Shown here piece by piece: positions 1-20,709 of a DNA stretch of 64,000 nucleotides. The notes below the pieces were generated by a model that worked only from the letters and a program-made list of their open reading frames with translations, did no database searches and was not told the origin of the DNA. Within the stretch, counting starts at the first letter, position 1. Every line of letters begins with the position of its first letter. The position numbers were made by a program, and so were the translations under genes. Source of the DNA: Azorhizobium caulinodans ORS 571 (lineage in GTDB: Bacteria; Pseudomonadota; Alphaproteobacteria; Rhizobiales; Xanthobacteraceae); NCBI RefSeq assembly GCF_000010525.1, contig NC_009937.1, positions 749,501 to 813,500 of the forward strand. The letters run 5' to 3'.

Positions 1-1019
1 TGGCCGGTGAGCGAGAAGGGCCCCATGCCTTCGCGCCCGATGCGGCCGGTGGCGAGGTGGCAGTTGAGGATGGCGTTTACCTTGTCCGTGCCGCGCCGGG
101 ACTGGTTGACGCCCTGCGAGTAGCAGGTCACCACTCGGTCCGTGGCCCGGAACAGCGCGAAGAAGCGCGCCACATCCGCTTCGGCTAAGCCCGTGATGCG
201 GGCGGTGGCGGCAAGGTCCGGCGTTTCCGCCCGCGCGGCCGACAGCGTTTCCGCAAATCCCTCGGTGTGCTGCGCGATGAAGGTCTCATCGAGCGCGCCG
301 GTGTCCGTCAGATGCACCAGCAGGCCGGAGAACAGCGCCGCGTCCGTGCCGTGGGCGAGGGGCAGAAACAGGTCCGCTTCCTCGGCCGTGGCGGTGCGGC
401 GGGGGTCGATGACCACGAGCTTCGTGCCGCGCGCCTGCCGCGCCGCCACCATGCGGCGGAACAGCACCGGATGGCACCAGGCGGTGTTGGAGCCTGTGAG
501 GACGATGAGGTCGGCTTGTTCCAGATCCTCATACGATCCCGGCACCGTATCCGAGCCGAAGGCCCGCTTGTGCCCGGCGACGGACGAAGCCATGCAGAGG
601 CGCGAATTGGTGTCCACGTTCGCCGTGCCGAGGAAGCCCTTGGCGAGCTTGTTGGCGGCGTAATAATCCTCCGTGAGCAACTGGCCGGAGAGATAGAAGG
701 CCACCGCCTGCGGCCCATGCTCGGCGAGCACGCGGCGGAAGCCCTCCGCCACCCGGTCGAGTGCGGAATCCCACGTCACCCGCCGCAGATCGCCGGCGCC
801 CTCGCGCATCATGGGATGGAGCAGCCGGGTCTCCAGCCCGATGGTCTCGCCCAGCGCCGCGCCCTTGGAGCACAGCCGGCCGAGATTGGCCGGGTGCGCG
901 GCATCGCCCTCGATCAATGCGCCGCCGAGCCCATCGGGCGTCGCCTTCACGCCGCAGCCGACGCCGCAATAGGGACAGGTGGTCGATGTCGCCTGAGGCG
1001 AGGAAAGCGGGGCGTTCAT
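1..1019 (-). CDS. nasA: Assimilatory nitrate reductase catalytic subunit, N-terminal part (cut by window edge)
   Basis: Cytoplasmic molybdopterin enzyme reducing nitrate to nitrite. Translating the minus strand from the ATG at 1017-1019 gives an open frame of about 339 codons that runs off the left edge. The N-terminus has the 4Fe-4S pattern Cys15-x2-Cys18-x3-Cys22 and a fourth Cys near 50 in GRLCSKG. Next come the family stretches DYYAANKLAKG, NVDTNSRLCMAS, TGSNTAWCHPVLFRR, VIDPRRT and CYSQGVNQS, all typical of the NasA/NapA group. The lack of a twin-arginine signal and the nitrate-import operon point to assimilation rather than respiration. It is the last visible gene of the nrt-nir-nas operon, 27 bp downstream of the flavoprotein gene. 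The C-terminal half, including any extra Fe-S domain, lies outside the window. Confidence 0.93.
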   Translation of the reverse strand, partial: MNAPLSSPQATSTTCPYCGVGCGVKATPDGLGGALIEGDAAHPANLGRLCSKGAALGETIGLETRLLHPMMREGAGDLRRVTWDSALDRVAEGFRRVLAEHGPQAVAFYLSGQLLTEDYYAANKLAKGFLGTANVDTNSRLCMASSVAGHKRAFGSDTVPGSYEDLEQADLIVLTGSNTAWCHPVLFRRMVAARQARGTKLVVIDPRRTATAEEADLFLPLAHGTDAALFSGLLVHLTDTGALDETFIAQHTEGFAETLSAARAETPDLAATARITGLAEADVARFFALFRATDRVVTCYSQGVNQSRRGTDKVNAILNCHLATGRIGREGMGPFSLTG

Positions 1020-1046: not shown

Positions 1047-2660
1047 TCAGTAGACGTCCGCCTGATAGCGGCCGGCCTTCTTCAGTTCCGCCACGAAGCG
1101 GGCACCGCCCTCGGCCCCGAGGCCGCCATGGGTGGCGGCCACATCCGCGACGGCGGCCTCCACATCCTTGGCCATGCGCTTGGCATCGCCGCAGACATAG
1201 AAGTGCGCGCCTTCCTCGAACCACGCCCAAAGTTCGGGGCCTGCGGCGCGGATGCGATCCTGCACATAGACCTTCTCCCCGCCCTCGCGGGACCATGCGG
1301 TGTCGAGCCGCGAGAGCACGCCCGCGGCCTGCATTCCGGCGAGTTCGTCTTCATAGAAGAAGTCGGTGGCCGAGCGCTGGTGGCCGAAGAACAGCCAGTT
1401 GCGACCCGGCGCTTTCGTCGCCATGCGCTCATGCAGGAAGGCGCGGAAGGGGGCGATGCCCGTGCCGGGGCCGACCATGACGACGGGCCGCGCCGCATCC
1501 GTCGGCAGGCCGAAGCCGTGGGCCTTCTGCACATAGGCCTTCATCCGCGTGCCTGGCGCCACGCGCCCGCCGAGGAAGGTGGAGCACACCCCGAGCCGCG
1601 TGCGGCCCTGATGGTCGTAGCGCACCGCATCCACCGTCAGCGAGAGCCGGCCGGGGGTGGCGGCGGGGCTGGAAGAGATGGAATAAAGGCGCGGCTGGAG
1701 CGGCTCCAGGCACTCCACGAAGGCCTCCGGGTCCGGCCGGATGCCGGGGAATTTCTCCAGCGCCGCCAGCACGTCGAGCGTTGCCGCATCGCCATCCGGG
1801 TCCTCGCCCGCCGCCAGCGCCTTCGCGTTGTCCTTGCGGGCCCCGCCGGTGATGTAGGAGATGAGGGTGAAGAGCGTGTCGGGGGGCGATTTCAGGCACA
1901 CCTCCTTGGTGAGCACCTGCTCCAGCGTCTTCTCGCCGATGGGGAAGTCGGCAGGGGCATGCAAAGCGGCGAGAACGTCCGCCACGAGGCCGGGATCATT
2001 CACCGGGAACAGGCCGAAGCTGTCGCCCGCCTTGTAGTCGAGCCCCGAGCCTTCGAGGTCGAAATCCACGTGCCACGTCTCCTTCTCGGAGCCGTCCTTG
2101 TTGAGGCGGAAGCGGCCGAGGAAGGTGACTTCGGCGGGATTGTCGCGCGTGCCCCTCGGCGCAGCGGCGGCCGGGGCGGTTGCGGCCTCGGCACCGGGCG
2201 CGGTGGGCGCCGGTGCGGGTGCGCCATCCAGCTCGGTGGCGAGCTGCTTCAGCATCCGCAGCGTCTCCTTGCCGCCGGGGGCGCAGAGATTGAGCTTGGT
2301 CTCGGCGCCCGAGGCGAGCGCCTTGGAATAGCTGTCGCAGATATAGCCGCACTGGCCGCAGTCCTGCTGCGCCATGGCCGCCATCATCCGCCGGGCGAGC
2401 GGCTTGCCTTCGGCGAGCTTCATGCGCTCGTCGAGCGGCATCGAGGCATCATGCCAGGGCGCACCGTCGTCTTCCTCAGCACTCGCGGGCGGGGCCATGA
2501 GGGCCGCGCCCTCGGCCGGAGACAGGACGGTGGCGCCGGCCGGCGCCTCGCCGGAGAAAATGCCGGCGAAGAAGCCGTTGAGCCAGGCCCGCTGCTCGGC
2601 CGAGAAAGGGGCGCTTTCCGGCAGGAAGGGCACCAGAGGGGTTCGCGTCTGGAGGGTCAT
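1047..2660 (-). CDS. Fe-S flavoprotein reductase, CysJ/ferredoxin-NADP reductase-like, of the nitrate operon
   Basis: 537 residues, ATG overlapping the nirA stop (ATGA). The C-terminal two thirds is a sulfite reductase flavoprotein-type module: RLYSISSSPAA for FAD binding, GPGTGIAPFRAF for NAD(P) binding and YVCGDAKRMAKDVE near the end. There is no flavodoxin domain. In its place residues 101-126 carry Cys101-x2-Cys104-x3-Cys108-x17-Cys126 (CGQCGYIC and LCAPGG), which resembles the small 4Fe-4S domain of RnfB and CO-dehydrogenase proteins. A proline/alanine-rich linker follows. It probably passes electrons from NAD(P)H through FAD and the cluster to NirA and/or NasA. Automatic annotation often calls such proteins sulfite reductase subunit alpha; the neighbours make nitrate or nitrite reduction more likely. 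Confidence 0.85.
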   Translation of the reverse strand: MTLQTRTPLVPFLPESAPFSAEQRAWLNGFFAGIFSGEAPAGATVLSPAEGAALMAPPASAEEDDGAPWHDASMPLDERMKLAEGKPLARRMMAAMAQQDCGQCGYICDSYSKALASGAETKLNLCAPGGKETLRMLKQLATELDGAPAPAPTAPGAEAATAPAAAAPRGTRDNPAEVTFLGRFRLNKDGSEKETWHVDFDLEGSGLDYKAGDSFGLFPVNDPGLVADVLAALHAPADFPIGEKTLEQVLTKEVCLKSPPDTLFTLISYITGGARKDNAKALAAGEDPDGDAATLDVLAALEKFPGIRPDPEAFVECLEPLQPRLYSISSSPAATPGRLSLTVDAVRYDHQGRTRLGVCSTFLGGRVAPGTRMKAYVQKAHGFGLPTDAARPVVMVGPGTGIAPFRAFLHERMATKAPGRNWLFFGHQRSATDFFYEDELAGMQAAGVLSRLDTAWSREGGEKVYVQDRIRAAGPELWAWFEEGAHFYVCGDAKRMAKDVEAAVADVAATHGGLGAEGGARFVAELKKAGRYQADVY

Positions 2661-4426
2661 TCGGCGCGCTCCATGGCGGTCTCGACGAGGGATTTCAGGG
2701 CGGCGGGGCCAAGGCGGCGGGTGAAGGCGGCGAAGGTCTCGCCCGGCAGCCTTTGCGCAGTCCAGCCGCTGAGCAGGCGCTCCACGAGGGCGGGTGCGTC
2801 TTCCGCCTTCACCTGCTCGAACAGCTCCTGCGCGATGGCGGCCTCCGTGCCGAAACCGCCGCCCACCAGCAGGTTGTAGCCATCCACCGTGTCGCCATCC
2901 TCATTGATGGCCACGCGCGCGCCGATGAGGCCGATATCGCCGATATAATGCTGGGCGCAGGAATTGTGGCAGCCGGTGACGTGGATGTTCACCGGGCTGT
3001 CCAGCGCCACGCGCGGGCCGCAATAAGCGGCGATGGCGCGCGCGGTGGCCTTAGTGTCCGCATTGCCGAAGCGGCAGCCGGCCGCCCCCGTGCAGGCGAC
3101 GATGCCGGCCTGAAGCGCATCCGCATCCGCCGTGAGGCCGAGCGCGGTGATGGCGGCCTTCGCCACCGTCACCCGTGCATCCGGCACGCCGGAAACGAGG
3201 ACGTTCTGCCAGACGGTGAGGCGCAGATCGCCATCCCCGAGGTTCTGGGCGATATCCGCAAGGCCGCGCATCTGGGCGGCCGTCATGCGGCCCACCGGGA
3301 CGCCGATGCCGATCCAGTTCAGCCCCGCCTGCTTCTGCGGCCGCACGCCGAGATGGGCCATGCGGTCCGCCTCCGGGCGCGGTTTCACGGCGTCTGCCGG
3401 CACGCGGACGAAGGGGGCGCCCAGCCGCTCTTCCACCTTCTTCAGGAAGCCGTCGAAGCCCAGCGCATCGAGCACGTATTTGAGGCGGGCCTTCTTGCGG
3501 TCGGTGCGGTCGCCGGTGTCGATGAAGACGCGGATGATGGCATCGGCCACCTTGGTGGCGTCCGCAGGGGGCAGGATGACGCCGGTATCGCGGGCGAAAT
3601 CCTTGTGGCCGGTGATGCCGCCGAGCGCAAGGCGGAACCACACGCCGGGTTCGACGCCGAAGCCCTCCTTCACCTCCACGGCCTGGAAGCCGATGTCGTT
3701 GGTGTCCTCCAGCGCGCCGATCTGGCCGGCGCCGTCGAAGGCCACGTTGAACTTGCGCGGCAGGCCATAGAGCGTGCGGGTGTTGAGGATGTGATGGTGC
3801 CACGCCTTGGCATAGGGGCGGGTGTCCAGCAGCTCCTGCGGGTCGATGCCAGCGGTGGGTGTGCCCGTGACGTTGCGGATGTTGTCGCCGCCGGAGCCCT
3901 TGGCGGTGAGTCCGAGGTCCACCAGCTTCTCCAGCAGGATCACGCCGTCGGTGGCCGGGATCTCGCGGATCTGGAGATTGGCGCGCGTTGTCACGTCCGC
4001 ATAGCCGCCGCCGTGGATTTCGGCGATGTCGGCGATGCCCCGGAACTGCCAGTGGGTGAGGATGCCGTTGGGCATCCTGAGGCGGCACATGAAGCTGTCC
4101 TGCGCGGGGGCGACATAGAACAGGCCGTGATACTTCCAGCGCAGGATGTCCGGCCCCTTGGGGTAGACGCCCTCGCGCGCGGCTTCTTCCATGCGGGGCC
4201 AGGCATCGAGGCCCATTTCCTCGCGCTTGGCCTTCTCCTCGGGGCAGAGCTTCTTGCCCTCCGCTTCCGTGCGCGCCATGGCCTTGAGGCTCGGCGCATC
4301 CGGTCCGGTCGGCTCGGCCGTGGCGGGAGAGCCGCCGCCGGGCGCGCGACCCGCGCGGGCCACCTGCGCGCCGGACATGAAACCTTCCAGATAGCGTTTC
4401 TGATCCACTGTAAAGTCGCCGCTCAT
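2657..4426 (-). CDS. nirA: Assimilatory nitrite reductase, sirohaem/4Fe-4S (NirA family)
   Basis: 589 residues. It reduces nitrite to ammonium with six electrons in the cytoplasm. The sirohaem-4Fe-4S ligand pattern is complete: Cys445-x5-Cys451 (CTGAAGC) and Cys486-x3-Cys490 (GCHNSC), each at the end of a ferrite-reductase half domain. The open frame extends upstream, but the start is placed at the ATG at 4426 because GGAGAG lies just before it and because MSGDFTVDQKRYLEGFMSG is the usual N-terminus of this family. The length suits the one-chain ferredoxin-type enzyme, not NirBD, and no NirD is present. It sits 13 bp after the FAD reductase gene and overlaps the Fe-S flavoprotein gene by four bases, so translational coupling is likely. 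The true electron donor is inferred, not seen. Confidence 0.93.
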   Translation of the reverse strand: MSGDFTVDQKRYLEGFMSGAQVARAGRAPGGGSPATAEPTGPDAPSLKAMARTEAEGKKLCPEEKAKREEMGLDAWPRMEEAAREGVYPKGPDILRWKYHGLFYVAPAQDSFMCRLRMPNGILTHWQFRGIADIAEIHGGGYADVTTRANLQIREIPATDGVILLEKLVDLGLTAKGSGGDNIRNVTGTPTAGIDPQELLDTRPYAKAWHHHILNTRTLYGLPRKFNVAFDGAGQIGALEDTNDIGFQAVEVKEGFGVEPGVWFRLALGGITGHKDFARDTGVILPPADATKVADAIIRVFIDTGDRTDRKKARLKYVLDALGFDGFLKKVEERLGAPFVRVPADAVKPRPEADRMAHLGVRPQKQAGLNWIGIGVPVGRMTAAQMRGLADIAQNLGDGDLRLTVWQNVLVSGVPDARVTVAKAAITALGLTADADALQAGIVACTGAAGCRFGNADTKATARAIAAYCGPRVALDSPVNIHVTGCHNSCAQHYIGDIGLIGARVAINEDGDTVDGYNLLVGGGFGTEAAIAQELFEQVKAEDAPALVERLLSGWTAQRLPGETFAAFTRRLGPAALKSLVETAMERAE

Positions 4427-4439
4427 GATGTCTCTCTCC

Positions 4440-5642
4440 TCACGCCGCCAGCGCCGGCCGCCCGAAGGCGAGCGCGGCGCGCAGCGGCGCGATGGGGGTG
4501 CGGTTCGTGATGAGGTCGAGGAAATAGAGCCCGTCGGCGGTGTCGCCGAAGAGCACGGCGCCAGCGAGCACGCCGTCGCGGATGAAGAGGCGGCGATAGA
4601 TGCCATGGGCGCGGTCACGCAGCACGATGTCCTGCGCCCCCTCGCCGGAGATGTCGCCGGCCGAGAAGACCGGCACGCCGGACACCTTGAGGTTCGTCGA
4701 GACGACGCTGCCCGGATAAGCCGCCGGCTTGCCCGCCAGATGCCGCGCGAGCACGTGCGCCTGCTCATAGGCGGGGGCGACGAGGCCATAGGCCATGCCC
4801 CGGTGCTCGGCGCATTCGCCCAGCGCGAAGATGGCGGGATCGCTGGTGGCGAGATGATCGTCCACCACCACGCCGCGATTGCAGGTGAGGCCCGTTGCGC
4901 GGGCGAGATCGGCATTCGGGCGCACGCCGCAAGCCATCACCACCAGATCGGCGGGCAGCACCTCGCCATCCGCGAGCCGCAGTCCCGTGACATGGCTTTC
5001 GCCTTCGATGGCGGCGCTGTGGGCCTGAAGCCGCACGGTAACGCCGCGCGCTTCCACCGCCTGACGCAGCAGATCGGCGGCAGTGGCGTCGAGCTGGCGC
5101 TCCATCAGCCGGTCCATCAGATGGACGAGGGTGGTCGCAACGCCTGCGCCCGCAAGGCCGATGGCGGCTTCCAGCCCCAGAAGGCCGCCGCCGATCACCA
5201 CGGCGCGCACGCCGGGCTTTGCCGCCGCGAGCAGAGCCGAAACATCCGCCAGATCGCGGAAGGTGGTGACGCCGGGCAGGTCCGCGCCCGGCAGCGGCAG
5301 GCGGATGGGATGCGAGCCGGTGGCGAGCACCAGCCGGCTGAAGGGCAGGCGACGCCCGTCCGCCAGCACCACGGCCCGGCTTTCCCGGTCGATGGAAGCG
5401 GCGGGCGTTCCATAGAGCAGGGTCACGCCCTGCTTCGCCCACCAACTGGCGGGCTTCATTTCAAGATCGGTGGCCGGCAGCTTGCCGGCGAGCACGTCGG
5501 AGAGCAGCACGCGATTATAGGCAAGGCCCGGCTCCGCTCCCACGACGGCGACGGAATAGCGGCCGAGCCCGCAGGCCCCGAGCTCTTCGCAGAGCTTGGT
5601 GGCGGCCATGCCGTTGCCGATGATGACGAGAGGCTCGCTCAC
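4440..5642 (-). CDS. FAD/NAD(P)-dependent oxidoreductase, NirB N-terminal-like (Flp-like)
   Basis: 400 residues with two dinucleotide folds: an FAD motif at the N-terminus (IIGNGMAATKLCEEL) and an NAD(P) motif in the middle (VVIGGGLLGLEAA). These are followed by GVRPNADLARATGL and the FAD-contact stretch IFALGECAEH. This is the layout of rubredoxin reductases and of the N-terminal half of NirB/NasB; the Fe-S and sirohaem half is absent, so it is a stand-alone electron-transfer protein. It lies between the globin gene (36 bp) and nirA (13 bp). In Bradyrhizobium a comparable flavoprotein (Flp) is encoded beside a haemoglobin and nasC, so this protein may reduce the globin, the nitrate reductase, or both. 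The partner is inferred from context only. Confidence 0.85.
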   Translation of the reverse strand: MSEPLVIIGNGMAATKLCEELGACGLGRYSVAVVGAEPGLAYNRVLLSDVLAGKLPATDLEMKPASWWAKQGVTLLYGTPAASIDRESRAVVLADGRRLPFSRLVLATGSHPIRLPLPGADLPGVTTFRDLADVSALLAAAKPGVRAVVIGGGLLGLEAAIGLAGAGVATTLVHLMDRLMERQLDATAADLLRQAVEARGVTVRLQAHSAAIEGESHVTGLRLADGEVLPADLVVMACGVRPNADLARATGLTCNRGVVVDDHLATSDPAIFALGECAEHRGMAYGLVAPAYEQAHVLARHLAGKPAAYPGSVVSTNLKVSGVPVFSAGDISGEGAQDIVLRDRAHGIYRRLFIRDGVLAGAVLFGDTADGLYFLDLITNRTPIAPLRAALAFGRPALAA

Positions 5643-5678: not shown

Positions 5679-6104
5679 TCATTCCGCCGGGACGGCAGCG
5701 CCCTCGGCCGCCTCGATCATCACGCCGGAGAGCAGCCCATAAGCCTCCGCCCAGGCGGCCTTCACCTCGGGCGTGAAGTCGGGGCCGAGGCCCTGTTCCA
5801 GCGTCCAGAGCAAGGCGGCGCCGACCGGGGCATAGTGTTCGCGCGTCACGCCATAGGCGACGTGGCGGCGGGCCAGCGCCTGCGCAGCCGGCACGATGGC
5901 GTCGAGCTTGGTGAGGCCGTTCACCACCACGGAGAGGGTGGCCATCAGCTTCTTCCCCTGCTCCGAAATATCGCCCTTGAAGAGGGGCTTCACCTCCGGC
6001 GCGATCTCGAACAGCCGGCCATAGAACAGGCCGGCTGCGGTCTCGGCGATGGGCGCCACCTTGGCGAAAGAGGACTGCACCAGTTCCACTTGGCTCGGGG
6101 TCAT
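5679..6104 (-). CDS. Single-domain bacterial haemoglobin
   Basis: 141 residues from the ATG at 6104; the open frame extends upstream but MTPSQVELVQSSF is the normal globin N-terminus. Visible globin features are Tyr28 in the B helix (GLFYGRLFE), Gln49 in the distal region (EQGKKLM) and the proximal His81 in ARRHVAYGV, as in Vitreoscilla haemoglobin and the globin half of flavohaemoglobins. There is no attached reductase domain; the FAD reductase encoded 36 bp downstream could supply it in trans. In nitrate-assimilation operons such globins are thought to remove nitric oxide formed from nitrite; that role is inferred here. Confidence 0.9.
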   Translation of the reverse strand: MTPSQVELVQSSFAKVAPIAETAAGLFYGRLFEIAPEVKPLFKGDISEQGKKLMATLSVVVNGLTKLDAIVPAAQALARRHVAYGVTREHYAPVGAALLWTLEQGLGPDFTPEVKAAWAEAYGLLSGVMIEAAEGAAVPAE

Positions 6105-6143
6105 GACGGGCTCCTGGCTGGCGGGTTCCGGATGGGGCGAAGG

Positions 6144-6167
6144 GGCCGGAGCGGTGCCGCTCCGGCC
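6144..6167 (-). repeat. Intercistronic hairpin between nrtC and the globin gene
   Basis: A perfect inverted repeat with 11-bp GC-rich arms (GGCCGGAGCGG and its complement) and a 2-nt loop lies in the 69-bp gap after the nrtC stop. No T-tract follows on the minus strand, so it is more likely an mRNA-stabilising or processing hairpin than a terminator. Confidence 0.5.
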
Positions 6168-6173
6168 GCGCAA

Positions 6174-6968
6174 TCAGGCGGCCTCGACGAAGCGGTGGCG
6201 CTCGTGGAGGAATTTCAGCACCGCCTCGCGGGCCTTGAGGTAAGTGGGATTGGCCACCAGTTCGAGGCGCTTGCGCGGGCGCGGCAGGCCGACCTCCAGC
6301 ACCTCGCCGATGCGGGCGGAGGGGCCGTTGGTCATCATCACGATGCGGTCGGAGAGGAGGACCGCCTCGTCCACATCGTGGGTGATCATGAGGATGGTGT
6401 TGCCCAGCGTGGCATGGATCTGCATTACGCTGTCCTGCAGATGGGCGCGGGTGAGCGCGTCCAGCGCGCCGAAGGGCTCGTCCAGCAGCAGCACCTTGGG
6501 CTCCATGGCGAGCGCCCGGGCGATGCCCACGCGCTGCTTCATGCCGCCGGAGACCTCAGAGGGGCGCTTGTCCCGCGCGTGGCCCATCTGCACCAGCTCG
6601 AGATTGTGCATGGTCCAGTCGTGCCGCTCGGCCCGCGAGCGGGTGCCGGAGAACACCTTGTCCACCGCGAGGCGCACGTTGTCATAGACGGTGAGCCAGG
6701 GCAGCAGGGAGTGGTTCTGGAACACCACGGCGCGGTCCGGGCCGGGGCTGTTGACCTCTCGCCCATCAAGGATCACGCCGCCGCTCGTGGCGGGAGTGAG
6801 GCCCGCCACGATGTTGAGCAAGGTGGACTTGCCGCAGCCCGAATGGCCGATGATGGAGATGTATTCGCCCTTGGCGATGTCCAGCGAGACCTCGCGCAGC
6901 ACCTCGGTGGTGGCGGCGCCGCGGGTGAAGGTCTTGCCGATCTGGCTGAGCTCGAGATAGGCGGGCAT
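6174..6968 (-). CDS. nrtC: Nitrate ABC transporter ATP-binding protein
   Basis: 264 residues. It powers import of nitrate (possibly also nitrite) with NrtB and NrtA. Walker A is GHSGCGKST at residues 41-49, followed by a Q-loop (VVFQNHSLLPWL), the ABC signature SEVSGGMKQR, Walker B with D-loop (VLLLDEPFGALD) and the H-loop (MITHDVDEAV). The start at 6968 (MPAYLELSQIGKTF) is chosen because a purine-rich GGAGAT precedes it and the upstream part of the open frame overlaps nrtB. The protein lacks the fused C-terminal substrate-binding domain of cyanobacterial NrtC and is the size of NasD/NrtD-type ATPases. It begins 11 bp after nrtB. Confidence 0.93.
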   Translation of the reverse strand: MPAYLELSQIGKTFTRGAATTEVLREVSLDIAKGEYISIIGHSGCGKSTLLNIVAGLTPATSGGVILDGREVNSPGPDRAVVFQNHSLLPWLTVYDNVRLAVDKVFSGTRSRAERHDWTMHNLELVQMGHARDKRPSEVSGGMKQRVGIARALAMEPKVLLLDEPFGALDALTRAHLQDSVMQIHATLGNTILMITHDVDEAVLLSDRIVMMTNGPSARIGEVLEVGLPRPRKRLELVANPTYLKAREAVLKFLHERHRFVEAA

Positions 6969-6979
6969 GGGGATCTCCT

Positions 6980-7888
6980 TCAGGACGCCGCGGTGCCGCG
7001 GGTGACGATGCCGGCGACACCGGCCACGAGACGGTCGAGAACGAAGCCCACCACGCCGATGTAGACGAGGGCGACGATGATGTCGGGCAGGCGGGAGGAG
7101 TTCCACGCATCCCAGATGAAGAATCCGATGCCGACGCCGCCGGTGAGCATCTCCGCCGCCACGATGGCGAGCCAGGACAGGCCGACGCCGATGCGCAGGC
7201 CGGTGAAGATGTAGGGCGCCGCCGAGGGCAGCATGATCTTCCAGAAGAATTCCAGCGGGTTCAGCCGCAGCACCTGTGCCACGTTCCGATAGTCCTGCGG
7301 GATGTTCCGGATGCCCACTGCCGTGTTGATGATGATCGGCCAGATGGAGGTGATGAAGATCACGAAGATGGCCGAGGGGTTGCTGTCGCGGAAGGCGGCG
7401 AGTGCCAGCGGCAGCCAGGCGAGCGGCGGCACCGTGCGCAGCATCTGGAAGATGGGATCGAGCCCGCGCATGGCCCAGACCGACTGGCCGATGAGCGCGC
7501 CGGTGAGCACGCCCACAACAGCGGCGAGGCCGAAGCCCACCGCCACGCGCTGGAGCGACACGAGAACGCGCAGGCCGAGGCCGATGTCCTGCGGGCCGGC
7601 GACGAAGAAGGGATCGACGATCAGATCCTTGCTGTCGGCCCAGATGCGGCTCGGCGGAGGCAGGGTCGCCCCGGCGCCCCGGCACAGCAGTTCCCACAGT
7701 AGCAGCAGCAGGGCTGTGACGATGAGCGGCGGCAGCACGCTCACCGCGAACCAGCGTGCGGCGGCCATGAGGCGGGCGGAGACGGGCGGGCGCGACCGCT
7801 TCAGGCGGACGACCTGCGCGACGCTCGCAGGCGTGGCGGCTTCGGGACGCCGCTGCGGCTCGGCCTCTTTGAGGGCGGTGACGGACAT
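6980..7888 (-). CDS. nrtB: Nitrate ABC transporter permease
   Basis: 302 residues, inner-membrane permease of the SsuC/TauC/NrtB family. The start at 7888 (MSVTALKEAE) has a GAGGAG ribosome-binding site nine bases upstream, which rules out the slightly longer frame. A cytoplasmic N-terminal tail of about 50 residues is followed by a first membrane segment (VLPPLIVTALLLLLWEL) and about five more. The inner-membrane coupling motif lies around FRDSNPSAIFVIFIT and GIRNIPQDYRNVAQVL. It is separated from nrtA by 140 bp containing a palindrome, and is followed after 11 bp by nrtC. Confidence 0.92.
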   Translation of the reverse strand: MSVTALKEAEPQRRPEAATPASVAQVVRLKRSRPPVSARLMAAARWFAVSVLPPLIVTALLLLLWELLCRGAGATLPPPSRIWADSKDLIVDPFFVAGPQDIGLGLRVLVSLQRVAVGFGLAAVVGVLTGALIGQSVWAMRGLDPIFQMLRTVPPLAWLPLALAAFRDSNPSAIFVIFITSIWPIIINTAVGIRNIPQDYRNVAQVLRLNPLEFFWKIMLPSAAPYIFTGLRIGVGLSWLAIVAAEMLTGGVGIGFFIWDAWNSSRLPDIIVALVYIGVVGFVLDRLVAGVAGIVTRGTAAS

Positions 7889-7941
7889 GGCGGGCTCCTC
7901 AGACAACGGAACAGGGGGCACAACGGCCGCCAAAAAGGTGA

Positions 7942-8028: not shown

Positions 8029-9429
8029 TCAGACCTCCACCCGCTTGATGCCGAGGCTCTTCAGATAGGCGGTGGGATTGGCCGGGTCGAAGCTCTTGCC
8101 ATCGAAGAAGGTCTCGACGCCGCGCGAGGTGGAGGTGGGAATTTCGGCCGCCGGCACGTTCAGTTCCTTGGCGGCGGCGCGCCACAGGTCCTCGCGGTTC
8201 ACCTTGTCCACCAGGGTCTTGATGTCGGTGGTGGGTTCGAACTTGCCCCAGCGGATGTCCTCGGTGATGAACCAGGCGTCATGGCTCTTGAAGGGATAGG
8301 AGGCGTTGGCCTGCCAGAACTTCATGTACTGGTCGGAGCCCTTCACCACGCGGCCGTTGCCGTAATTGATGTCGCCGATGGTGCGGCCGTAGATGTCGGC
8401 GACAGGCACGTTGAACCACTGCCGCTTGCCGACGATCTCGGACATCTCCTTCTTGTTTTCCATTTTGTCGCACCACTGCTGCGCTTCCAGCACGGCCATG
8501 AGGATGGCCTTGGTGGCGTTGGGGTTCTTGTCCACGAAGTCGGCGCGCATCCCGAGCGCCTTCTCGGGATGGTTCTTCCAGATCTCGCCGGTGGTGCAGG
8601 CGGTGTAGCCGATGCCCTGGTTGACGAGCTGCTCATTCCATGGCTCGCCCACGCAGAAGGCGTCCATGTTGCCCACCTTCATGTTCGCCACCATCTGGGG
8701 CGGCGGAACCACGATGGTGGAGACGTCCTTGTCCGGGTCGATGCCGGCGGCGGCGAGCCAGTACCGGATCCAGAGGTCGTGCGTGCCACCGGGGAAGGTC
8801 ATGGCGACCTTCACTTCCTTGCCCTCGGCCTTCTTCTTCTCGAACGCGGCCTTGAGCGCCGAGGCGTTGGCGGTGGCCTTCAGGTCCTTGTATTCGTTGG
8901 AAACGGAGATGGCCTGCGCATCGAGATTGAGGCGCGCGAGGATGTACATGGGCGTCGGCGCGTTGTTCTGCGTCACCTTGCCGGTGGAGATGAGGTAGGG
9001 CATGGGGGTGAGGATGTGCGCCCCGTCGATGCCGTTGGCGCCGCCGCCGAGCACGAGATTGTCGCGGGTGGCGCCCCAGGAGGCCTGCTTCACCACCTCC
9101 ACGTCCGGCACGCCATACTTGGCGAACAGCCCCTTCTCCTTGGCGATCACCAGCGGGGAAGCGTCCATGAGCGCGATGTAGCCGAGGACGGCCTTGGTGG
9201 TCTCTGGTGCCGCCGCATGCGCGGAGGGCACGCCGCCGGGGAAGACCGTCCGCACCGCCTCGAACAGCGCCGCCGTTCCCATGGCCGCGACGCCGCCCTT
9301 GAGCAGCGAACGGCGCGAGACACCCTCGTGCGCGGTCCCCTCGGGGCCAGCCGAAGACGCCGCCGGCGAGGGGGCGGCGGGCGACACAACGGACAGCGCA
9401 ACGGACTTGGGCTCGGAGGCGTCGGTCAT
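8029..9429 (-). CDS. nrtA: Nitrate ABC transporter substrate-binding protein, Tat-exported
   Basis: 466 residues of the NrtA/CmpA family, which captures nitrate in the periplasm. An N-terminal tail of about 37 residues precedes a twin-arginine signal (SRRSLLKGG, Arg39-Arg40), then a hydrophobic stretch and a probable cleavage after AHA near residue 72. The mature part begins VLGYIALMDASPLVIAKEKG and includes conserved blocks such as GIDGAHILTPMPY and CVGEPWNEQLVNQG. It is the first gene of the operon and is preceded by an attenuator-like leader. NasS, encoded at 15461-16597, is a paralogue of the same fold without an export signal, so transporter and sensor share ancestry. Confidence 0.93.
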   Translation of the reverse strand: MTDASEPKSVALSVVSPAAPSPAASSAGPEGTAHEGVSRRSLLKGGVAAMGTAALFEAVRTVFPGGVPSAHAAAPETTKAVLGYIALMDASPLVIAKEKGLFAKYGVPDVEVVKQASWGATRDNLVLGGGANGIDGAHILTPMPYLISTGKVTQNNAPTPMYILARLNLDAQAISVSNEYKDLKATANASALKAAFEKKKAEGKEVKVAMTFPGGTHDLWIRYWLAAAGIDPDKDVSTIVVPPPQMVANMKVGNMDAFCVGEPWNEQLVNQGIGYTACTTGEIWKNHPEKALGMRADFVDKNPNATKAILMAVLEAQQWCDKMENKKEMSEIVGKRQWFNVPVADIYGRTIGDINYGNGRVVKGSDQYMKFWQANASYPFKSHDAWFITEDIRWGKFEPTTDIKTLVDKVNREDLWRAAAKELNVPAAEIPTSTSRGVETFFDGKSFDPANPTAYLKSLGIKRVEV

Positions 9430-9468
9430 CTTCAGGTTCCCCTCGTGGTGGCGTCGGTGGGCAAAACG

Positions 9469-9524
9469 AAAAAAGCCGCAGACATCCGCACGGCGCGGTT
9501 GGCGCCATCGGTGTCAGCGGCTTT
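9469..9524 (-). terminator. Intrinsic terminator in the nrtA leader (attenuator)
   Basis: On the minus strand, AAGCCGC and GACA pair with TGTC and GCGGCTT around one T-T mismatch. The region between the arms forms a small GGCGC/GCGCC hairpin. The right arm runs into six T residues, then CGTTTT. It lies about 40 bp before the nrtA ATG and downstream of the two hexaloop hairpins, so it must be read through for the operon to be expressed. Its 3' arm (9476-9481) can instead pair with CCGCAG at 9526-9531, beside the second hexaloop hairpin. That offers a possible switch between terminated and open forms; the switch is inferred. Confidence 0.75.
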
Positions 9525-9530
9525 GCTGCG

Positions 9531-9580
9531 GTCCCGCCCTTGGGACGAAATTTGGGAAGCGCCATCCCCGTTGACGGCGC
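9531..9580 (-). promoter_or_regulatory. Tandem hexaloop leader RNA, predicted ANTAR (NasT) target
   Basis: Read on the minus strand, two hairpins with six-base loops follow each other. P1 (9559-9580) has an 8-bp stem with arms GCGCCGUC and GAUGGCGC (one G-U pair) and loop AACGGG. P2 (9531-9546) has a 5-bp stem with arms GUCCC and GGGAC and loop AAGGGC. Both loops have A at position 1 and G at position 4, the defining feature of RNAs bound by ANTAR-domain antiterminators. A 12-nt linker separates the stems and an intrinsic terminator follows. The operon encodes nitrate uptake and reduction, and an ANTAR protein (nasT) lies 7 kb away, so NasT-dependent antitermination is the natural reading. 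Confidence 0.8.
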
Positions 9581-9593
9581 ATGCCCTTCCTTA

Positions 9594-9610
9594 TTCAAGG
9601 GCCGTGCCAA
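9594..9610 (-). promoter_or_regulatory. Candidate sigma54 promoter of the nitrate operon
   Basis: The minus strand reads TTGGCACG, four bases (GCCC), then TTGAA, with exactly the -24/-12 spacing of RpoN promoters (TGGCACG-N4-TTGCW). The -24 box is perfect; the -12 box has GA instead of GC, which lowers confidence. Transcription would start near 9583, only a few bases before hairpin P1, so the whole leader would be transcribed. A GGTGCACC palindrome at 9730-9737 could be part of an NtrC site, but the match is weak. Confidence 0.5.
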
Positions 9611-11760: not shown

Positions 11761-12906
11761 TCAGTCGTTGTCGCTGCTGGCGCCCTGGAAGAAGTCCTTC
11801 ATCTTGGCGAAGAAGCCGTTGGATTCCGGATGGGTATCCGTGGAGGAGAGGCCCTCGAATTCCGCGAGCAGTTCCTTCTGGCGCTTGGTGAGGTTCTGCG
11901 GCGTTTCCACCACCACCTGCACATACATGTCACCGAAGGAGCGCGAGCGCAGCACGGGCATGCCCGCTCCGGGCAGGCGCAGGCGCTTGCCGGACTGGGT
12001 GCCCTCGGGAATCTTCACCTTGGTCTTCTCGCCGCCGATGGTCGGCACTTCCACCGTGCCGCCGAGCGCCGCCGTCACCATGGAGATGGGCGCGCGGCAA
12101 TAAAGGTCCGCCCCTTCCCGCTGGAAGAAGGTGTGCGGCTCGATGGAGAGGAAGATGTAGAGGTCGCCGGGCGGTCCGCCGCGGACGCCCGCCTCGCCCT
12201 CGCCGCCGAGACGGATGCGGGTGCCGTCTTCCACGCCAGCCGGGATCTGCACCTGAAGCGTGCGCTCGCGCGTCACGCGGCCGGCGCCGCCGCAGTTCGG
12301 GCAGGGATCCTCGATCACGGTGCCGCGGCCCTGGCACGAGGGGCAGGTGCGCTCCAGCGTGAAGAAGCCCTGGGCATGGCGGATCTTGCCGGCGCCGTTG
12401 CAGGTGCGGCAGGTCTTGGGCTGGGTGCCGGCCTTGGCGCCGGAGCCCGAGCACACCTCGCAGGAGATGGACGTGGGGATGCTGATCTGGGCGGTCTTGC
12501 CGGAGAAGGCTTCCTCCAGCGTGATGTCCATATTGTAGCGCAGGTCCGCCCCGCGCGCCCGGCCGCCGGCGCTGCGGGCGCCGCTGCGGCCCATGGAGCC
12601 GCCGAACAGGTCGTCGAAAATGTCGGCAAAGGTGGAGGCGAAGTCGGCGTTGAAGCCCGCGCCGCCCGGCCCGCCACCATTCTCGAAGGCGGCATGGCCA
12701 TAGCGGTCGTAGGCGCCGCGCTTCTGCGGGTCCTTCAGGACCTCATAGGCCTCGGAGATTTCCTTGAAGCGGATTTCGGCTTCCGGGTCGCCCGGATTCT
12801 TGTCCGGGTGCCACTTCATCGCCAGCTTGCGGAACGAGGCCTTCAGCACCGTTTCATCGGCACCGCGATCACAGCCCAGCACCTCGTAATAGTCACGCTT
12901 CGCCAT
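11761..12906 (-). CDS. dnaJ: Chaperone DnaJ (class A J-protein)
   Basis: 381 residues. Co-chaperone that stimulates the DnaK ATPase and delivers unfolded clients. Domains in order: J domain (1-70) with the HPD motif in [11 protein letters not shown]; a glycine-rich linker (about 75-130); four zinc-binding CxxCxGxG repeats ([32 protein letters not shown]; about 145-210); then the substrate-binding C-terminal domains. The start at 12906 ([11 protein letters not shown]) is the conserved N-terminus; the frame extends upstream without support. It lies downstream of dnaK on the same strand but 416 bp away, with hairpins between, so it may have its own promoter. Confidence 0.97.
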
Positions 12907-13256
12907 GGTCTCGCTTTTCCGTCGCCCGCGAGGCGTAGCCATCCGGGCTCATCAGGTCCGAAAGAGCGCATGCCCGTCGAACGGGTCCTGAACAGCGCCT
13001 CGAAATCTCTTGTGCCGCATCGGCCTTGCGCGGGCACCGCAGCGTCCGTGCCGTCCTGCAGGCGCCCGACGACCCCGCCGGGACCGCGCCCGCCACCGGA
13101 CGTCCTCTAAACGCAACCGCGGCACAAGGAAAGATCACGGGCGCATCCGCCACCCAAAGGGGCGACACGATCGGGAGGCCTTGCGCCGGCGCCGCTCGCC
13201 CGCGATTGGGCCCCCTTCTGCCGCAGTCCGGGCAGCATCTTCGGCACAATCACAGC
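12907..13256. other. Gene-free spacer upstream of dnaJ
   Basis: About 350 bp with no credible coding frame on either strand. It probably holds the dnaJ promoter and 5' UTR, but I cannot identify a convincing promoter by eye in this GC-rich stretch. Confidence 0.5.
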
Positions 13257-13313
13257 GCCACCCCGCACATGGGCGGGGTGGCGAAAGACAGGCCCGGCGG
13301 CAGCGCCGCCGGG
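13257..13313 (-). terminator. Two hairpins downstream of dnaK
   Basis: Two perfect GC-rich inverted repeats follow the dnaK stop codon: 13293-13313 (9-bp arms CCCGGCGGC, 3-nt loop) and 13257-13282 (10-bp arms GCCACCCCGC). On the minus strand the first is followed by CCTGTCTTTC, a weak T-rich tract. Together they probably end or attenuate dnaK transcription before dnaJ. Confidence 0.55.
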
Positions 13314-13322
13314 AGCGTCCGC

Positions 13323-15218
<1,896 letters not shown>

Positions 15219-15460: not shown

Positions 15461-16597
15461 TCATTCCCCCGTCGCCAGGAAGCGCTCCTTGTCGAAAACG
15501 GGGCCGAACTGGGTGGCCACGCAATCCGGTTCGCGCGGTGGGGAGGGGGGCGCCGCCCCCACCGCCGCATCGAAGATGTCGGGCCGATAGACGGATATGG
15601 CTTCCCTAGCGGCATCCGGTGCCCAGTCGCCCTGATGGGCGGCGACGATCTGGTGATACATCCACAGCGCATGGTCCGGATCGGGGCGGTTGGCGCCCTC
15701 CCGGTGGAGGACCAGATAGTCCGGATGCGACCGCAGCACGCCGCCGGGGGCGGTGTGCAGGCGCCCGTCCAGCGTCCGGCGCAGGATGTCGGCTGGCAAG
15801 GAGAGGTGGCGCGGCTCGCTCAGCAGGCGGGCGAGGTCGGCGTGGTTGGCCGGGTCCTCGCACCAGGCGGCGGCGGCATTCAGCGCCCGCACCAGCCGGT
15901 GCAGAACTTCAGGCTCCGCATTGGCGAAGCGCGCATGGACGCCCAGCACCTTCTCCGGCACCCAGCCGAAGATCTCCGCCCCCAGCACCGCGATGCGGCC
16001 CACGTCCGCATCCACCGCCACGCTGTTCCAGGGCGAGCCCACCGAGAAGCCGTGGATGAGGCCGTTGCGCAGGCTCTCGGCCATGAAGGGCGGGGGGATC
16101 ACCACGAGCCGCACGTCCCGGTCCGGGTCGATGCCGCCTGCGGTGAGGAAGTGGCGGATGAGATAATGGTGGGTGGAGAAGGTATAGACCGCCGCGAAGG
16201 TGAGCGGGTCCTCGCCGCGCTCCCTGCGGTCGATCACCACCTTGCCCAGCGCCTGCGCCGCCCCAAGGGCGGAGGTGAGGTCGCCGCCCGTCTCGCCCAT
16301 GGCGGCATAGACGGATTTCGCGATGGTGATGGCGCTGCCGTTGAGGTTGAGCGCGAAGGGCACCACCAGGGGCACCCGCACATGGCCGAGGCCGAGGGAG
16401 GAGGCGATGGCGAGCGGGCCCAGCATATGGGCGCCGTCCAGCAGGCCCACATTCACCTTGTCGCGGATGTTGGCCCAGGAGACTTCCTTGTGCAGCTCGA
16501 TCTCGATGCCCTCGGCCATGGCGAAGCCGCGCTCGGCGGCGGCGATCAGCACGGCGGCGTCGGTGAGGGGGATGAAGCCGATGGACAGCCGTTTCAT
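15461..16597 (-). CDS. nasS: Cytoplasmic nitrate/nitrite sensor NasS
   Basis: 378 residues of the NrtA/CmpA ligand-binding fold with no export signal: the protein begins directly with MKRLSIGFIPLTDAAVLIAA. Conserved blocks shared with NrtA are LLDGAHMLGPLAIA, RLVVIPPPFMAESLRNG and FSVGSPWNSVAVD. In studied systems (Azotobacter, Paracoccus, Bradyrhizobium) NasS binds NasT when nitrate and nitrite are absent and releases it when they bind. Its ATG overlaps the nasT stop by four bases, giving coupled translation. It is unlinked to the structural operon: about 6 kb, including dnaK and dnaJ, lies between. Role assigned from family and gene pairing. Confidence 0.9.
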   Translation of the reverse strand: MKRLSIGFIPLTDAAVLIAAAERGFAMAEGIEIELHKEVSWANIRDKVNVGLLDGAHMLGPLAIASSLGLGHVRVPLVVPFALNLNGSAITIAKSVYAAMGETGGDLTSALGAAQALGKVVIDRRERGEDPLTFAAVYTFSTHHYLIRHFLTAGGIDPDRDVRLVVIPPPFMAESLRNGLIHGFSVGSPWNSVAVDADVGRIAVLGAEIFGWVPEKVLGVHARFANAEPEVLHRLVRALNAAAAWCEDPANHADLARLLSEPRHLSLPADILRRTLDGRLHTAPGGVLRSHPDYLVLHREGANRPDPDHALWMYHQIVAAHQGDWAPDAAREAISVYRPDIFDAAVGAAPPSPPREPDCVATQFGPVFDKERFLATGE

Positions 16598-17184
16598 CGC
16601 AGCAGCTCCGCGGCGGTGATGATGGATTGGGCGATGTCGGCGATGCGCTTCTTCTCGTTCATCGCGGTGCGGCGCAGGAGGCTGTAGGCGTCTTCCTCGC
16701 TGATGCCCTTCATCTTCATCAGCAGGCCCTTGGCCCGGTCCACCGTCTTGCGTTCCTCGAGCTGGCTTTTCGCCTCCTCCAGCTCCGCCTTCAGGCGGGC
16801 GAAGGCGCGGAAGCGGGAAATGGTGGTCTCCACAATGGGCCGCACCCGCTCCTTGCGCAGGCCGTCCACCACATAAGAGGCGACGCCCGCCTCGATGGCC
16901 TGCTGGATGGTCTCCCCGTCCGACTGGTCCACGAACATGGCGACGGGGCGCTTCACCTCGCGGGAGACGTGCAGCATCTGCTCGATGACGTCGCGGCTCG
17001 GGTCCTCAAGGTCGATGAGGATCACGTCCGGATCGATGGCATAGATGCGCTCGAGAAGATTGGTGCGGCCCTCGAGGCGCAGCACATTCACATAGCCAGC
17101 CTCGTGCAGCCCCTCGCTGAGGATCGCGGCCCGCACCGGACTTTCATCGACGATGACGATCCTGAGCTGAAGGTCGCTGGACAT
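16594..17184 (-). CDS. nasT: ANTAR-domain antiterminator NasT
   Basis: 196 residues from the ATG at 17184 (MSSDLQLRIVIVDESPVRAA). The N-terminal 120 residues form a receiver-like domain; the candidate acceptor Asp is in ILIDLEDPS. A charged coiled-coil linker follows (FARLKAELEEAKSQLEERK), then an ANTAR RNA-binding domain with the signature VDRAKGLLMKMKGISEEDAY. ANTAR domains bind pairs of hexaloop hairpins and prevent formation of a downstream terminator. A matching RNA lies ahead of nrtA (9531-9580). NasS, encoded next, should hold NasT inactive without nitrate. A 20-residue upstream extension is possible but lacks support. Confidence 0.93.
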   Translation of the reverse strand: MSSDLQLRIVIVDESPVRAAILSEGLHEAGYVNVLRLEGRTNLLERIYAIDPDVILIDLEDPSRDVIEQMLHVSREVKRPVAMFVDQSDGETIQQAIEAGVASYVVDGLRKERVRPIVETTISRFRAFARLKAELEEAKSQLEERKTVDRAKGLLMKMKGISEEDAYSLLRRTAMNEKKRIADIAQSIITAAELLR

Positions 17185-17212
17185 GAAGCTCTTGGGGCTG
17201 ACGAAGCACGAA

Positions 17213-17254
17213 ACGCAACGGCGCCAGTGTGCACGCACTCGGGCACCGTTGCGT
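17213..17254. repeat. Long inverted repeat upstream of nasT
   Basis: A 13-bp inverted repeat with one mismatch (left arm ACGCAACGGCGCC, right arm GGCACCGTTGCGT) encloses a smaller AGTG/CACT hairpin. It lies 29 bp before the nasT start codon. On the plus strand it is followed by AGCG and six Ts. Transcription here runs on the minus strand, so it could end the upstream gene's message, act as an operator, or structure the nasT leader. It does not form an A1/G4 hexaloop. Confidence 0.55.
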
Positions 17255-20300: not shown

Positions 20301-20709
20301 GCGGCACCGTCTTCACCCCGCCGAAGCGCGAGCCCCAGTCCTTGGAGGCGCTGTCGTCGATGCGCAGGTCCACCTCCACGAAATCATTGGAGGCGTTGCG
20401 GCCCTTGATGACCAGCACGTCGTCGGGGCCGAAGGCATGGGGCGGGGCATAATTCTGCTCCAGCGCCGGCGCGGTGCGGGTGTTGGCAAAGAGGACCGCG
20501 CCGGATGCGGCCGGGGCGGATGCGGGCGGCGGGGCGGAGGTGTCGAGCGTGCTCTGGGTCTTGCGGGTCAGCGCCCGCTCGATCCGCTCATAGGAGAGCT
20601 TCTCCCAGATATCCGGCCGGAACACCGCGACGCCCATGACCACGCTGGCCATGACGCCGAGCATGGCGCCCCAGGCAAAGCCGCTGAGCCACAGCCGGAT
20701 CTTGCCCAT
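17305..20709 (-). CDS. Large membrane-anchored protein with repeated beta modules and glycosidase-like C-terminus, function unknown
   Basis: 1134 residues from the ATG at 20709 (GGGAGAGG upstream). One N-terminal membrane segment (about residues 8-30, LSGFAWGAMLGVMASVVMGVAVF) probably anchors a large periplasmic part. Residues 71-187 and 207-322 are near-identical modules sharing VEVDLRIDDSASKDWGSRF and PPGPFEWVVPFKGL; residues 342-454 are a diverged third copy. They resemble carbohydrate-binding beta-sandwiches. A central region of about 400 residues follows. The C-terminal domain (about 820-1134) has LWSIADEPQN with Asp929-Glu930, like the acidic D-E-P motif of DUF4091-type glycoside hydrolases. 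This suggests action on an envelope or extracellular polysaccharide, but no family can be named with confidence. Confidence 0.75.
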   Translation of the reverse strand: MGKIRLWLSGFAWGAMLGVMASVVMGVAVFRPDIWEKLSYERIERALTRKTQSTLDTSAPPPASAPAASGAVLFANTRTAPALEQNYAPPHAFGPDDVLVIKGRNASNDFVEVDLRIDDSASKDWGSRFGGVKTVPPGPFEWVVPFKGLTDQNKRAMDINAITRIILFSPENLPAAQIASVTLERRPQPAAAAGSAPGAAPARANAALFTDASTSPALEQNYAPPRAFGPDDALVIKGSNPTGSAIEVDLRIDDSASKDWGSRFGMAKSVPPGPFEWVVPFKGLADQNKREMDIKAITRIILFSPENQPAAQIASASIENRPGAGDTTGSTGGAANEAKMGQSWLKGARTTAEQEFYPPMSFAQDQEVVVTGTNTDSKPITLYLRIDDVNSKNWNSRVNATVTVPPGPFTFRSPVSSWVTPSKARLDRTRVARFVISLGDGEGPIRLGDVHVAGGSPLPKDALGLRFGPADVSVPGFETVTRNDLRLSPAGRDLVRTQNDPLLSSGLNGVRTITVPWTKSDTATISLWTEDQGEWEYFPHSLHRTFIINGQVALKEDYRPDEWVEKVFHRGLWKEAMIDGDPWEVYASRRAGLVTATVPVIDGKITVQISSDQPPNDGYIAAMVIAPGASTAAAEAVEAWRRGRYMERWPVVDKPVDPKLAQGTTLRVLPYGTPRSQHPFWDPNLPTQTRLKALRGQMVSIDFLAFSDQSDANPDVALKLPEGITGEVRWGKWTYMRRGGGENSLSITSDVLEGDLTRLRIAAGIPRRMNVTFTVPETASGTLPVVLAMNIGGASVEARADVEVAPVTLPATATPVGYYMAAPNPDFWFPPKPATADRLMACDLKALRRFGLTGLSPDLVTPTADQRARYLEQTRLAKDAGFSPPFFDYVSVKLLADKVGVQAMGENIGATEAALTAAGLPLPLWSIADEPQNLQSPMMDLKRLRDAIRVYAPKAKIAGQLNDIKDKPFLPFFDTVLVNTGFGVSARDFADLKAQGITPWLYNMPDIEAAAGFLLWRVGAEGYIQWHARAATADPSDPTDGREPDFMFLPLTADRCQSVPTVDAMVVATGDGITDLRLLQWLDGRAASDPKAKALRDEIFAAIPGDWVGFEKQKPNLPALRRKLIDYAGATAAP
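19744..20499 (-). repeat. Two tandem near-identical modules inside the 1134-residue protein gene
   Basis: DNA at 20149-20499 (residues 71-187) and 19744-20091 (residues 207-322) encodes the same module with long stretches identical or nearly so in DNA, for example around CCCAGTCCTTGGAGGCGCTG in both copies. The similarity indicates a recent internal duplication or continuing gene conversion. A third, older copy lies at about 19348-19686. Confidence 0.85.

Follow-up and report, generated by a model that had tools for sequence, protein, structure and literature searches.

A three-hexaloop leader ahead of the nitrate-assimilation operon of Azorhizobium caulinodans, a probable NasT-controlled ANTAR attenuator

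What decides whether transcription passes from the leader into the nitrate-assimilation operon of Azorhizobium caulinodans ORS 571? The operon lies in a stretch of 64,000 nucleotides, analysed here as a whole and called the window (all positions are those of the window unless stated otherwise), and it begins with nrtA, whose start at 9429 is downstream of an intrinsic terminator. A preliminary description had placed an ANTAR-type attenuator ahead of nrtA and its ANTAR protein, NasT, in the same window. Both claims are supported: the loop letters A at position 1 and G at position 4 (A1/G4) are kept in relatives, with compensatory changes in hairpins P2 and P1, and nasT and nasS are both found in the window. 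We conclude that the nrtA leader is very probably a NasT-controlled ANTAR antitermination attenuator, of a known kind and in a three-hexaloop variant, whose working pair is likely to be P2 and P3. The attenuator type is already known; what is new is the variant with three hexaloops, together with a natural series of loop losses among its relatives.

Table 1. Positions of the leader elements, the genes of the operon and the regulator genes in the window.
Feature	Position	Strand	Details
Molybdopterin oxidoreductase	3..1019	-	cut by window start
Flavoprotein reductase	1047..2660	-	NF004859
ORF containing nirA, ferredoxin-type nitrite reductase	2657..4915	-	NF007126 from residue 164
FAD/NAD(P) oxidoreductase of operon	4440..5642	-	PF07992, PF18267
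Globin-domain protein of operon	5679..6173	-	PF00042
ORF containing nrtC, nitrate ABC ATPase	6174..7697	-	TIGR01184 over residues 267-497
nrtB, nitrate ABC permease	6980..7933	-	TIGR01183 over cut-off
nrtA, ABC-transporter nitrate-binding protein	8029..9429	-	PF13379; named by context with nrtB and nrtC
Intrinsic terminator	9469..9524	-	stem AAAGCCGC to GCGGCUUU; U6 at 9474-9469; -35.7 kcal/mol alone
Hairpin P3 (CAGC-AAAGCC-GCUG)	9515..9528	-	4-bp stem, hexaloop AAAGCC at 9524-9519
Hairpin P2	9531..9546	-	5-bp stem, hexaloop AAGGGC at 9541-9536
Hairpin P1	9559..9580	-	8-bp stem, hexaloop AACGGG at 9572-9567
Sigma-54-like promoter TTGGCACGGCCCTTGAA	9594..9610	-	from sequence; -24 GG element, -12 TTG element, GA replacing GC
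nasS, candidate nitrate sensor	15461..16597	-	PF13379; name from nasT neighbourhood
nasT, receiver + ANTAR regulator	16594..17238	-	ANTAR (67.7 bits) and receiver (35.1 bits) domains above cut-off

The anatomy of the leader, like the operon behind it and the promoter-like sequence ahead of it, is read directly from the DNA. P1, P2, P3 and the U6 terminator all lie within 9580-9469 on the minus strand. The stems and loops of P1 and P2, their A1/G4 letters and the six Ts of the terminator had been given in the preliminary description and are confirmed throughout; P3 and the sigma-54-like promoter directly upstream had been missed. The features by which an ANTAR target is recognised are two A1/G4 hexaloop hairpins, a linker of 2-25 nt between them, overlap of the downstream hexaloop hairpin with the terminator stem, compensatory stem changes and an ANTAR protein in the genome. 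In the window all three hairpins are hexaloops with A1/G4, and P1 and P2 are separated by 12 nt, P2 and P3 by 2 nt, and P1 and P3 by 30 nt with P2 counted; the first two linkers lie inside that range. The calculated stabilities are -13.7 kcal/mol for P1, -7.3 for P2 and -3.7 for P3. Folding of the 176 nt at 9605-9430 beats 200 of 200 shuffles (z -4.20) and that of the 121-nt leader core 199 of 200 (z -3.62). Among 5000 dinucleotide shuffles of the 139-nt leader two A1/G4 hexaloop hairpins arise in 32 and three, the number in the actual leader, in none.

The promoter-like elements upstream of P1, TGGCAC at 9609-9604 and TTG at 9598-9596, match nine of the ten specified letters of the sigma-54 consensus, and the GG and TTG elements are found again in most of the relatives' nrtA upstream regions (best 80 of 544). 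From this promoter, transcription is expected to start a few nucleotides before P1, and since the start would be at a sigma-54 promoter, the leader would be active under nitrogen shortage. Within the operon, the true start of nrtC is probably inside the open frame of Table 1. The molybdopterin oxidoreductase has Fdh-alpha, NasA and NasC as its best families, each below cut-off in the fragment, and it is probably the assimilatory nitrate reductase.

The loop and 3' strand of P3 are the terminator's 5' arm, and because AAAGCCGC belongs to both, P3 and the terminator are mutually exclusive. P3, and not P2, is the hexaloop hairpin that overlaps the terminator stem; as in the layout known from eut (PMC3369931, PMC8934654), it takes the canonical ANTAR switch position. 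We followed the hairpins through folds of growing prefixes of the RNA, an equilibrium calculation and not kinetics, in which the pairing probability of P3 is 0.98-0.99 at 74-102 nt (0.88 at 82 nt), then 0.52 at 106 nt and 0 from 110 nt, as the terminator forms. In the same folds the probability of P2 is 0.60-0.67 for prefixes of up to 106 nt and 0.46-0.53 for longer ones. That of P1 sinks to 0.42 by 82 nt and is 0.00 at 86-90 nt, where P1 pairs instead with the terminator as this emerges; after that the hairpin is restored. The 5' arm of P1 (GCGCCGUC, 9573-9580, minus strand) can pair with GAUGGCGC (9502-9509, minus strand) in the terminator's upper stem, and this pairing is present in the folds of the 84, 88 and 92 nt prefixes.

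Relatives were collected by a scan for NrtA, of which the best 80 of 544 confirmed loci were used. We aligned 75 of the 80, with groups assigned by eye: 32, joined by the window, form the 33 window-type leaders (alignment A1: Xanthobacteraceae, Bradyrhizobiaceae, Mesorhizobium and others), and 43 are of the Rhizobium/Agrobacterium type (alignment A2). The five left out comprise two with the leader cut at the match start (L041, L051), one at a contig end (L059) and two Beijerinckiaceae nrtA loci (L039, L044) in which a promoter-like sequence is present and no attenuator leader is visible. In an automatic search of 81 upstream regions (the best 80 of 544 and the window), 68 have a hexaloop hairpin overlapping the terminator, in L015 at a different place, while six have no terminator by the search rules and seven no overlapping hairpin; some of these misses (L016, L017, L020, L028) have leader hairpins visible by eye. 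U-tracts are poor in L011, L014 and L015.

Within this sample of the best 80 of 544, the window-type leaders keep A1 in 32 of 33 and G4 in 33 of 33 loops of P2, whose positions 2, 3, 5 and 6 are more variable, and the counts for P3 are the same; in P1 they are 14/33 for A1 and 22/33 for G4, with three and six rows gapped. The Rhizobium/Agrobacterium type has another arrangement. Here P1 and P3 each keep both letters in 43 of 43 leaders, their loops 40-45 nt apart, and the stretch between them contains an A1/G4 hexaloop hairpin of 4 bp in none of the 43; at the P2 site stands a plain hairpin supported by compensatory changes. The other positions of the P1 loop are looser, as in P2 of the window type, the P3 loop is free at positions 2 and 3, and A1 of P3 lies outside the terminator helix. 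In the window's type A1 and G4 of P3 fall in or beside the terminator 5' arm, so that their conservation cannot be separated from that of the terminator. With the P3 letters doing double duty in this way, ANTAR recognition is more cleanly supported by P2 in the window type and by P1 and position 1 of P3 in the other.

P1 was also counted under strict rules in 58 distinct regions, a set that leaves out L114 (no promoter) and L127 and L134 (short flank) and does not contain L120. An A1/G4 hairpin is found in 12 (shuffle mean 1.2, maximum 5), a G1/G4 hairpin in seven and neither in 39; with A1/G4 in only 12 of the 58, P1 survives in part of the window's relatives and is decaying elsewhere among them. 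Two Azorhizobium relatives have the loops AACGCT (L003) and GACGCT (L050).

Compensatory stem changes are found in the leader, as judged by a shuffle control that keeps relatedness, so that kinship is included and related sequences can beat the shuffles without structure. In the window-type alignment 87.8% of the cells of P1, P2 and P3 together are paired, and the covariation score is 0.216 against a shuffle mean of 0.121, with 0 of 500 shuffles as high and slid versions at 0.070 or less. Both-side changes occur in 10 of the 15 pairs, which 4 of 500 shuffles reach, and the pair-type measure is matched by 19 of 500. P2 and P3 alone score 0.245 against 0.139 (0/500 shuffles as high); the two of the five measures that were weaker for the three hairpins are so here too, pairs changed on both sides being reached by 126 and pair types by 77 of 500 shuffles. 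Taken singly in the 33 leaders, P2 is paired in 96.5% of cells with both-side changes in four of five pairs, P1 in 71.9% with changes in five of six counted pairs, and P3 in 96.2% with changes in one of four. P2 supplies most of the clean covariation signal, P3 being little varied. The eight pairs of the terminator base are formed in 91.6% of cells in the 33 leaders, with covariation hardly above the shuffles.

The preliminary description had taken P1 and P2 as the motif's two hairpins, and had added that CCGCAG could pair with CUGCGG of the terminator's 3' arm as a built-in switch. If P1 and P2 were the functional ANTAR pair, NasT would block the terminator indirectly, via this pairing. We consider this unlikely. 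P1 and P2 are indeed more stable than P3, their 12-nt linker is inside the eut range of 5-12 nt (PMC3369931), and CCGCAG/CUGCGG can form all six pairs in the window, so that the pairing as such stands. However, neither hairpin overlaps the terminator, whereas P3 does, and the loops constrained as a pair are P2 and P3 in the window type, or P1 and P3 in the Rhizobium/Agrobacterium type. More than half of the window-type leaders (33 in all) lack A1 in the P1 loop, and P3 keeps its two letters almost throughout. The switch is not conserved in relatives: the CCGCAG/CUGCGG pairing is complete in only 4 of 33 leaders, the window counted, with 65.1% of cells paired and covariation at shuffle level. 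P1 and P2 as the core pair were therefore rejected along with the CCGCAG switch.

The favoured pair, P2 and P3, can be searched for directly. A covariance-model search over the leader and its relatives had been proposed as a check, and it came out in favour of the attenuator: our model R1, a model of P2 and P3 as RNA only, built with the window included, matches the leader, and the relatives retain A1/G4 in P2 and P3. R1 would overlook targets of different geometry. In its own genome (5.37 Mb; 150 of 6632 first-look candidates scored) the nrtA leader is matched at E 4.9e-5 and the next candidate at E 0.89; matches 2-8, with scores of 18.6-22.6 bits and E values of 0.89-4.9, were judged to be chance, including one at 20654-20688 on the plus strand of the window. 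At E <= 0.5, R1 has matches in 73 of 119 genomes of the family, the weaker ones partly chance, and at E <= 0.01 in 8 of 240 genomes of the class, the own genome counted. Six of the eight non-own matches, L114 and L120 being outside the test, were examined for the ORF behind them in other alphaproteobacteria, and five of the six belong to NMT1_2, the nrtA/nasS family; the ORF behind L117 has no Pfam match. A P1 hexaloop is present too in L117, L118 and L119. L117 and L121 are two tandem R1-type leaders, 1.6 kb apart in one alphaproteobacterial genome, with NMT1_2 assigned by Pfam to the second ORF only.

Could the leader be a plain constitutive attenuator or a processed RNA, with no ANTAR input and with nitrate control through the promoter? 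The sigma-54-like promoter is present, which makes nitrogen control at initiation likely in any case, and the terminator alone could account for the conserved letters of P3. We nevertheless regard this as very improbable, as P2 lies outside the terminator yet keeps A1/G4 while the rest of its loop varies more, and P1 behaves likewise in the Rhizobium/Agrobacterium type. The absence of three A1/G4 hexaloops from all 5000 shuffles also speaks against it, as does the fact that all 15 genomes with narK RNAs of the same plan (see below) have ANTAR genes as well.

The protein that an ANTAR target calls for is at hand. NasT, whose closest solved structure is EutV (6wsh/6ww6), is encoded about 7 kb from the leader, beside nasS, whose product resembles NrtA (2g29) and a nitrate transport ATP-binding protein; nasT and nasS are thus found together with a nitrate-assimilation operon as target, as in NasST attenuation. 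Between the nrt operon and nasST lie dnaJ and dnaK (11761-15218, minus strand), and at 18182-20287 (minus strand) there is a 701-aa open frame with no Pfam match at E 0.001 and no NCBIfam match at E 1e-10. The genome has two ANTAR genes. That the second (C1:4441865-4442026), which may be an AmiC-AmiR-like locus by analogy, reads the nrtA leader is hardly credible: its ANTAR domain is over cut-off, but it has no Pfam receiver match and lies elsewhere on the chromosome between two periplasmic-binding-protein genes, whereas nasT adjoins nasS near the leader.

NasT control of the nrtA leader would agree with what has been published on other bacteria. In Paracoccus, NasT binds a nasA leader, where mutation of a hairpin abolishes growth on nitrate (PMC3795266, PMC5424462), and NasT antitermination at nitrate or nos leaders has been described for Paracoccus and Bradyrhizobium (PMC3795266, PMC5424462, PMC6759348). 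The nasA and nosR systems of these two resemble the window in their receiver-ANTAR protein with a nitrate-binding partner, their hairpins and terminator and the nitrogen-oxide genes downstream. The accounts cited here describe a hairpin series, a pair of hairpins named HI and HII, or a hairpin with which NasT interacts; three A1/G4 hexaloops, as in the window, do not appear in them. A finding that points the other way comes from Bradyrhizobium, where deletion of nasT raised expression of the narK operon despite predicted hairpins (PMC6759348). The EutV/eut motif, and likewise NasR-nasF and AmiR-amiE, shares with the window A1/G4 hexaloops of which the last overlaps the terminator (PMC3369931, PMC8934654); the eut motif has two hexaloops where the window has three. 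Linker lengths differ as well. A 3-nt linker impaired eutP (PMC3369931), and the 2-nt P2-P3 linker of the window is shorter than this; for actinobacterial ANTAR RNAs the range used is 2-25 nt (PMC8164766). Leaders of the Rhizobium/Agrobacterium type have a whole hairpin in the linker, whereas in the EutV system a 20-nt linker extension abolished action (PMC8934654). In the EutV-RNA crystal structure one dimer was unable to hold both hexaloops of one RNA simultaneously, and its authors prefer a model of successive binding in which the distance is tightly limited (PMC8934654). In 2012 ANTAR RNAs were already reported upstream of nitrate transporters. Among the papers listed, our literature search found no description of a three-hexaloop leader and nothing pertinent on a third or triple hairpin in ANTAR RNAs.

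Two Rfam families bear on the leader. At gathering score Rfam gave no match within the window; lax scans gave narK (21.3 bits), ncS035 (19.5), ctRNA_p42d (15.2), P11 (14.6), mir-5881 (14.3) and BTH_s19 (11.8). The ncS035 match, a weak one to a Burkholderia sRNA, covers 9468-9605 (minus strand, E 0.017), and a search of 13 genomes for ncS035 returned zero matches in any of them. For the narK RNA (RF03032) the score compares with 43.2 bits required, and the own genome has no match at E 0.001; the window leader would work like the narK RNA and is a non-member by score. The likeness is in the narK consensus, which starts with a sigma-54-like promoter, continues with a hairpin whose loop is AACGGC and closes with ACGACAAAGACGUCGC, able to form a second hexaloop hairpin, although the structure line in Rfam has the first hairpin only; the window differs in having P2 between the two hexaloops. 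At E 0.001 we found RF03032 in 15 of 299 genomes of the phylum, 11 of the 15 over cut-off. All 15 have an ANTAR gene, against 106 of the 299 overall (hypergeometric 9e-8, for genomes that are related, not independent, and come from seven genera), and in each the nearest narK match is no more than 1.75 kb away from an ANTAR domain, this match being below cut-off in seven (G028, G054, G190, G207, G261, G294, G298). P1 with at least 4 bp is formed in 19 of the 23 narK matches (L083-L105) and a second A1/G4 hexaloop with at least 3 bp in 21, overlapping the terminator in 20. By its sequences, the narK RNA of Rfam appears to combine a sigma-54 promoter with a two-hexaloop ANTAR attenuator. The narK RNA was reportedly discovered in a paper on 224 RNAs. 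A description of it as an ANTAR target was not found in our literature search, and an earlier notice in the discovery paper is possible.

P11 (RF00625) scores 14.6 bits in the window against 70 for membership, with no match in the own genome, the sole miss among 12 genomes tested; the other 11 have it above cut-off (L151-L161), and five rows below cut-off, one of which (L162) was read individually, were left uncounted. The sample was not random, since these 11 all bear narK matches and belong to a single family (presumably Pseudomonas). The distance from a narK match to the P11 downstream of it is 3.0-3.8 kb in ten of the 11 and 9.5 kb in one. In each of the 11 a promoter-like sequence is accompanied by two hexaloops, AACGxx and, at a U-run terminator, AAAGGC (overlap by eye), and nine have an A1/G4 hexaloop between these two, that is, the three-hexaloop plan. 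The P2-P3 loop spacing is 12 nt in P11 and in several Xanthobacteraceae relatives and 11 nt in the window. Both ORFs tested behind P11, each cut by the locus end, match NirB, whereas the window leader is ahead of nrtA. Given its look of a nirB leader, its up to three A1/G4 hexaloops and its terminator, P11 looks like a terminated nirB leader, the product of a NasT attenuator. A link of NasT and P11 is probably in print already, since the 2024 Marogi study is said to describe a partner switch that involves nitrate, sensor proteins and P11. P11 has been named as a regulator of nitrogen assimilation in P. aeruginosa (Marogi 2024, as cited in PMC12080996), and it is the small RNA from Pseudomonas that figures in the disputed work on inheritance in C. 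elegans.

For the window, we infer the binding of NasT to the leader, the hairpins that it needs and the operon's response to nitrate. RNA polymerase would begin at the sigma-54 promoter and make P1, then P2, then P3. Without nitrate, NasS would keep NasT bound, as in Paracoccus, and about 35 nt past the completion of P3 the 3' arm would draw the loop and 3' strand of P3 into the terminator, so that transcription would stop before nrtA. With nitrate, NasT would be released and grip the hexaloops; with P3 kept closed, the terminator's 5' arm would be hidden and the operon from nrt through nirA to nitrate reductase would be transcribed. P1 would be an extra, weaker first site that is disappearing in related leaders.

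To conclude, these leaders are natural variants of geometry in one gene context, with three loops, with a compact P2 and P3, or with P1 and P3 across a spacer hairpin, and they bear on the question of how two loops are read by an ANTAR dimer. A function for the Rfam narK RNA and an anatomy for P11 can be proposed from them as well. Tentatively, the nitrate leaders of alpha- and gammaproteobacteria could be a three-hexaloop relay, in which NasT would be caught on the emerging P1, passed to P2 and then to P3, and held there, keeping it closed against the terminator; separate clades would have dropped one member, P1 in Bradyrhizobium-like leaders and the P2 hexaloop in Rhizobium and Agrobacterium, and the narK RNA and P11 would fall in the same regulatory class. 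If this is true, the natural losses of single sites would test the successive-binding model of ANTAR action.
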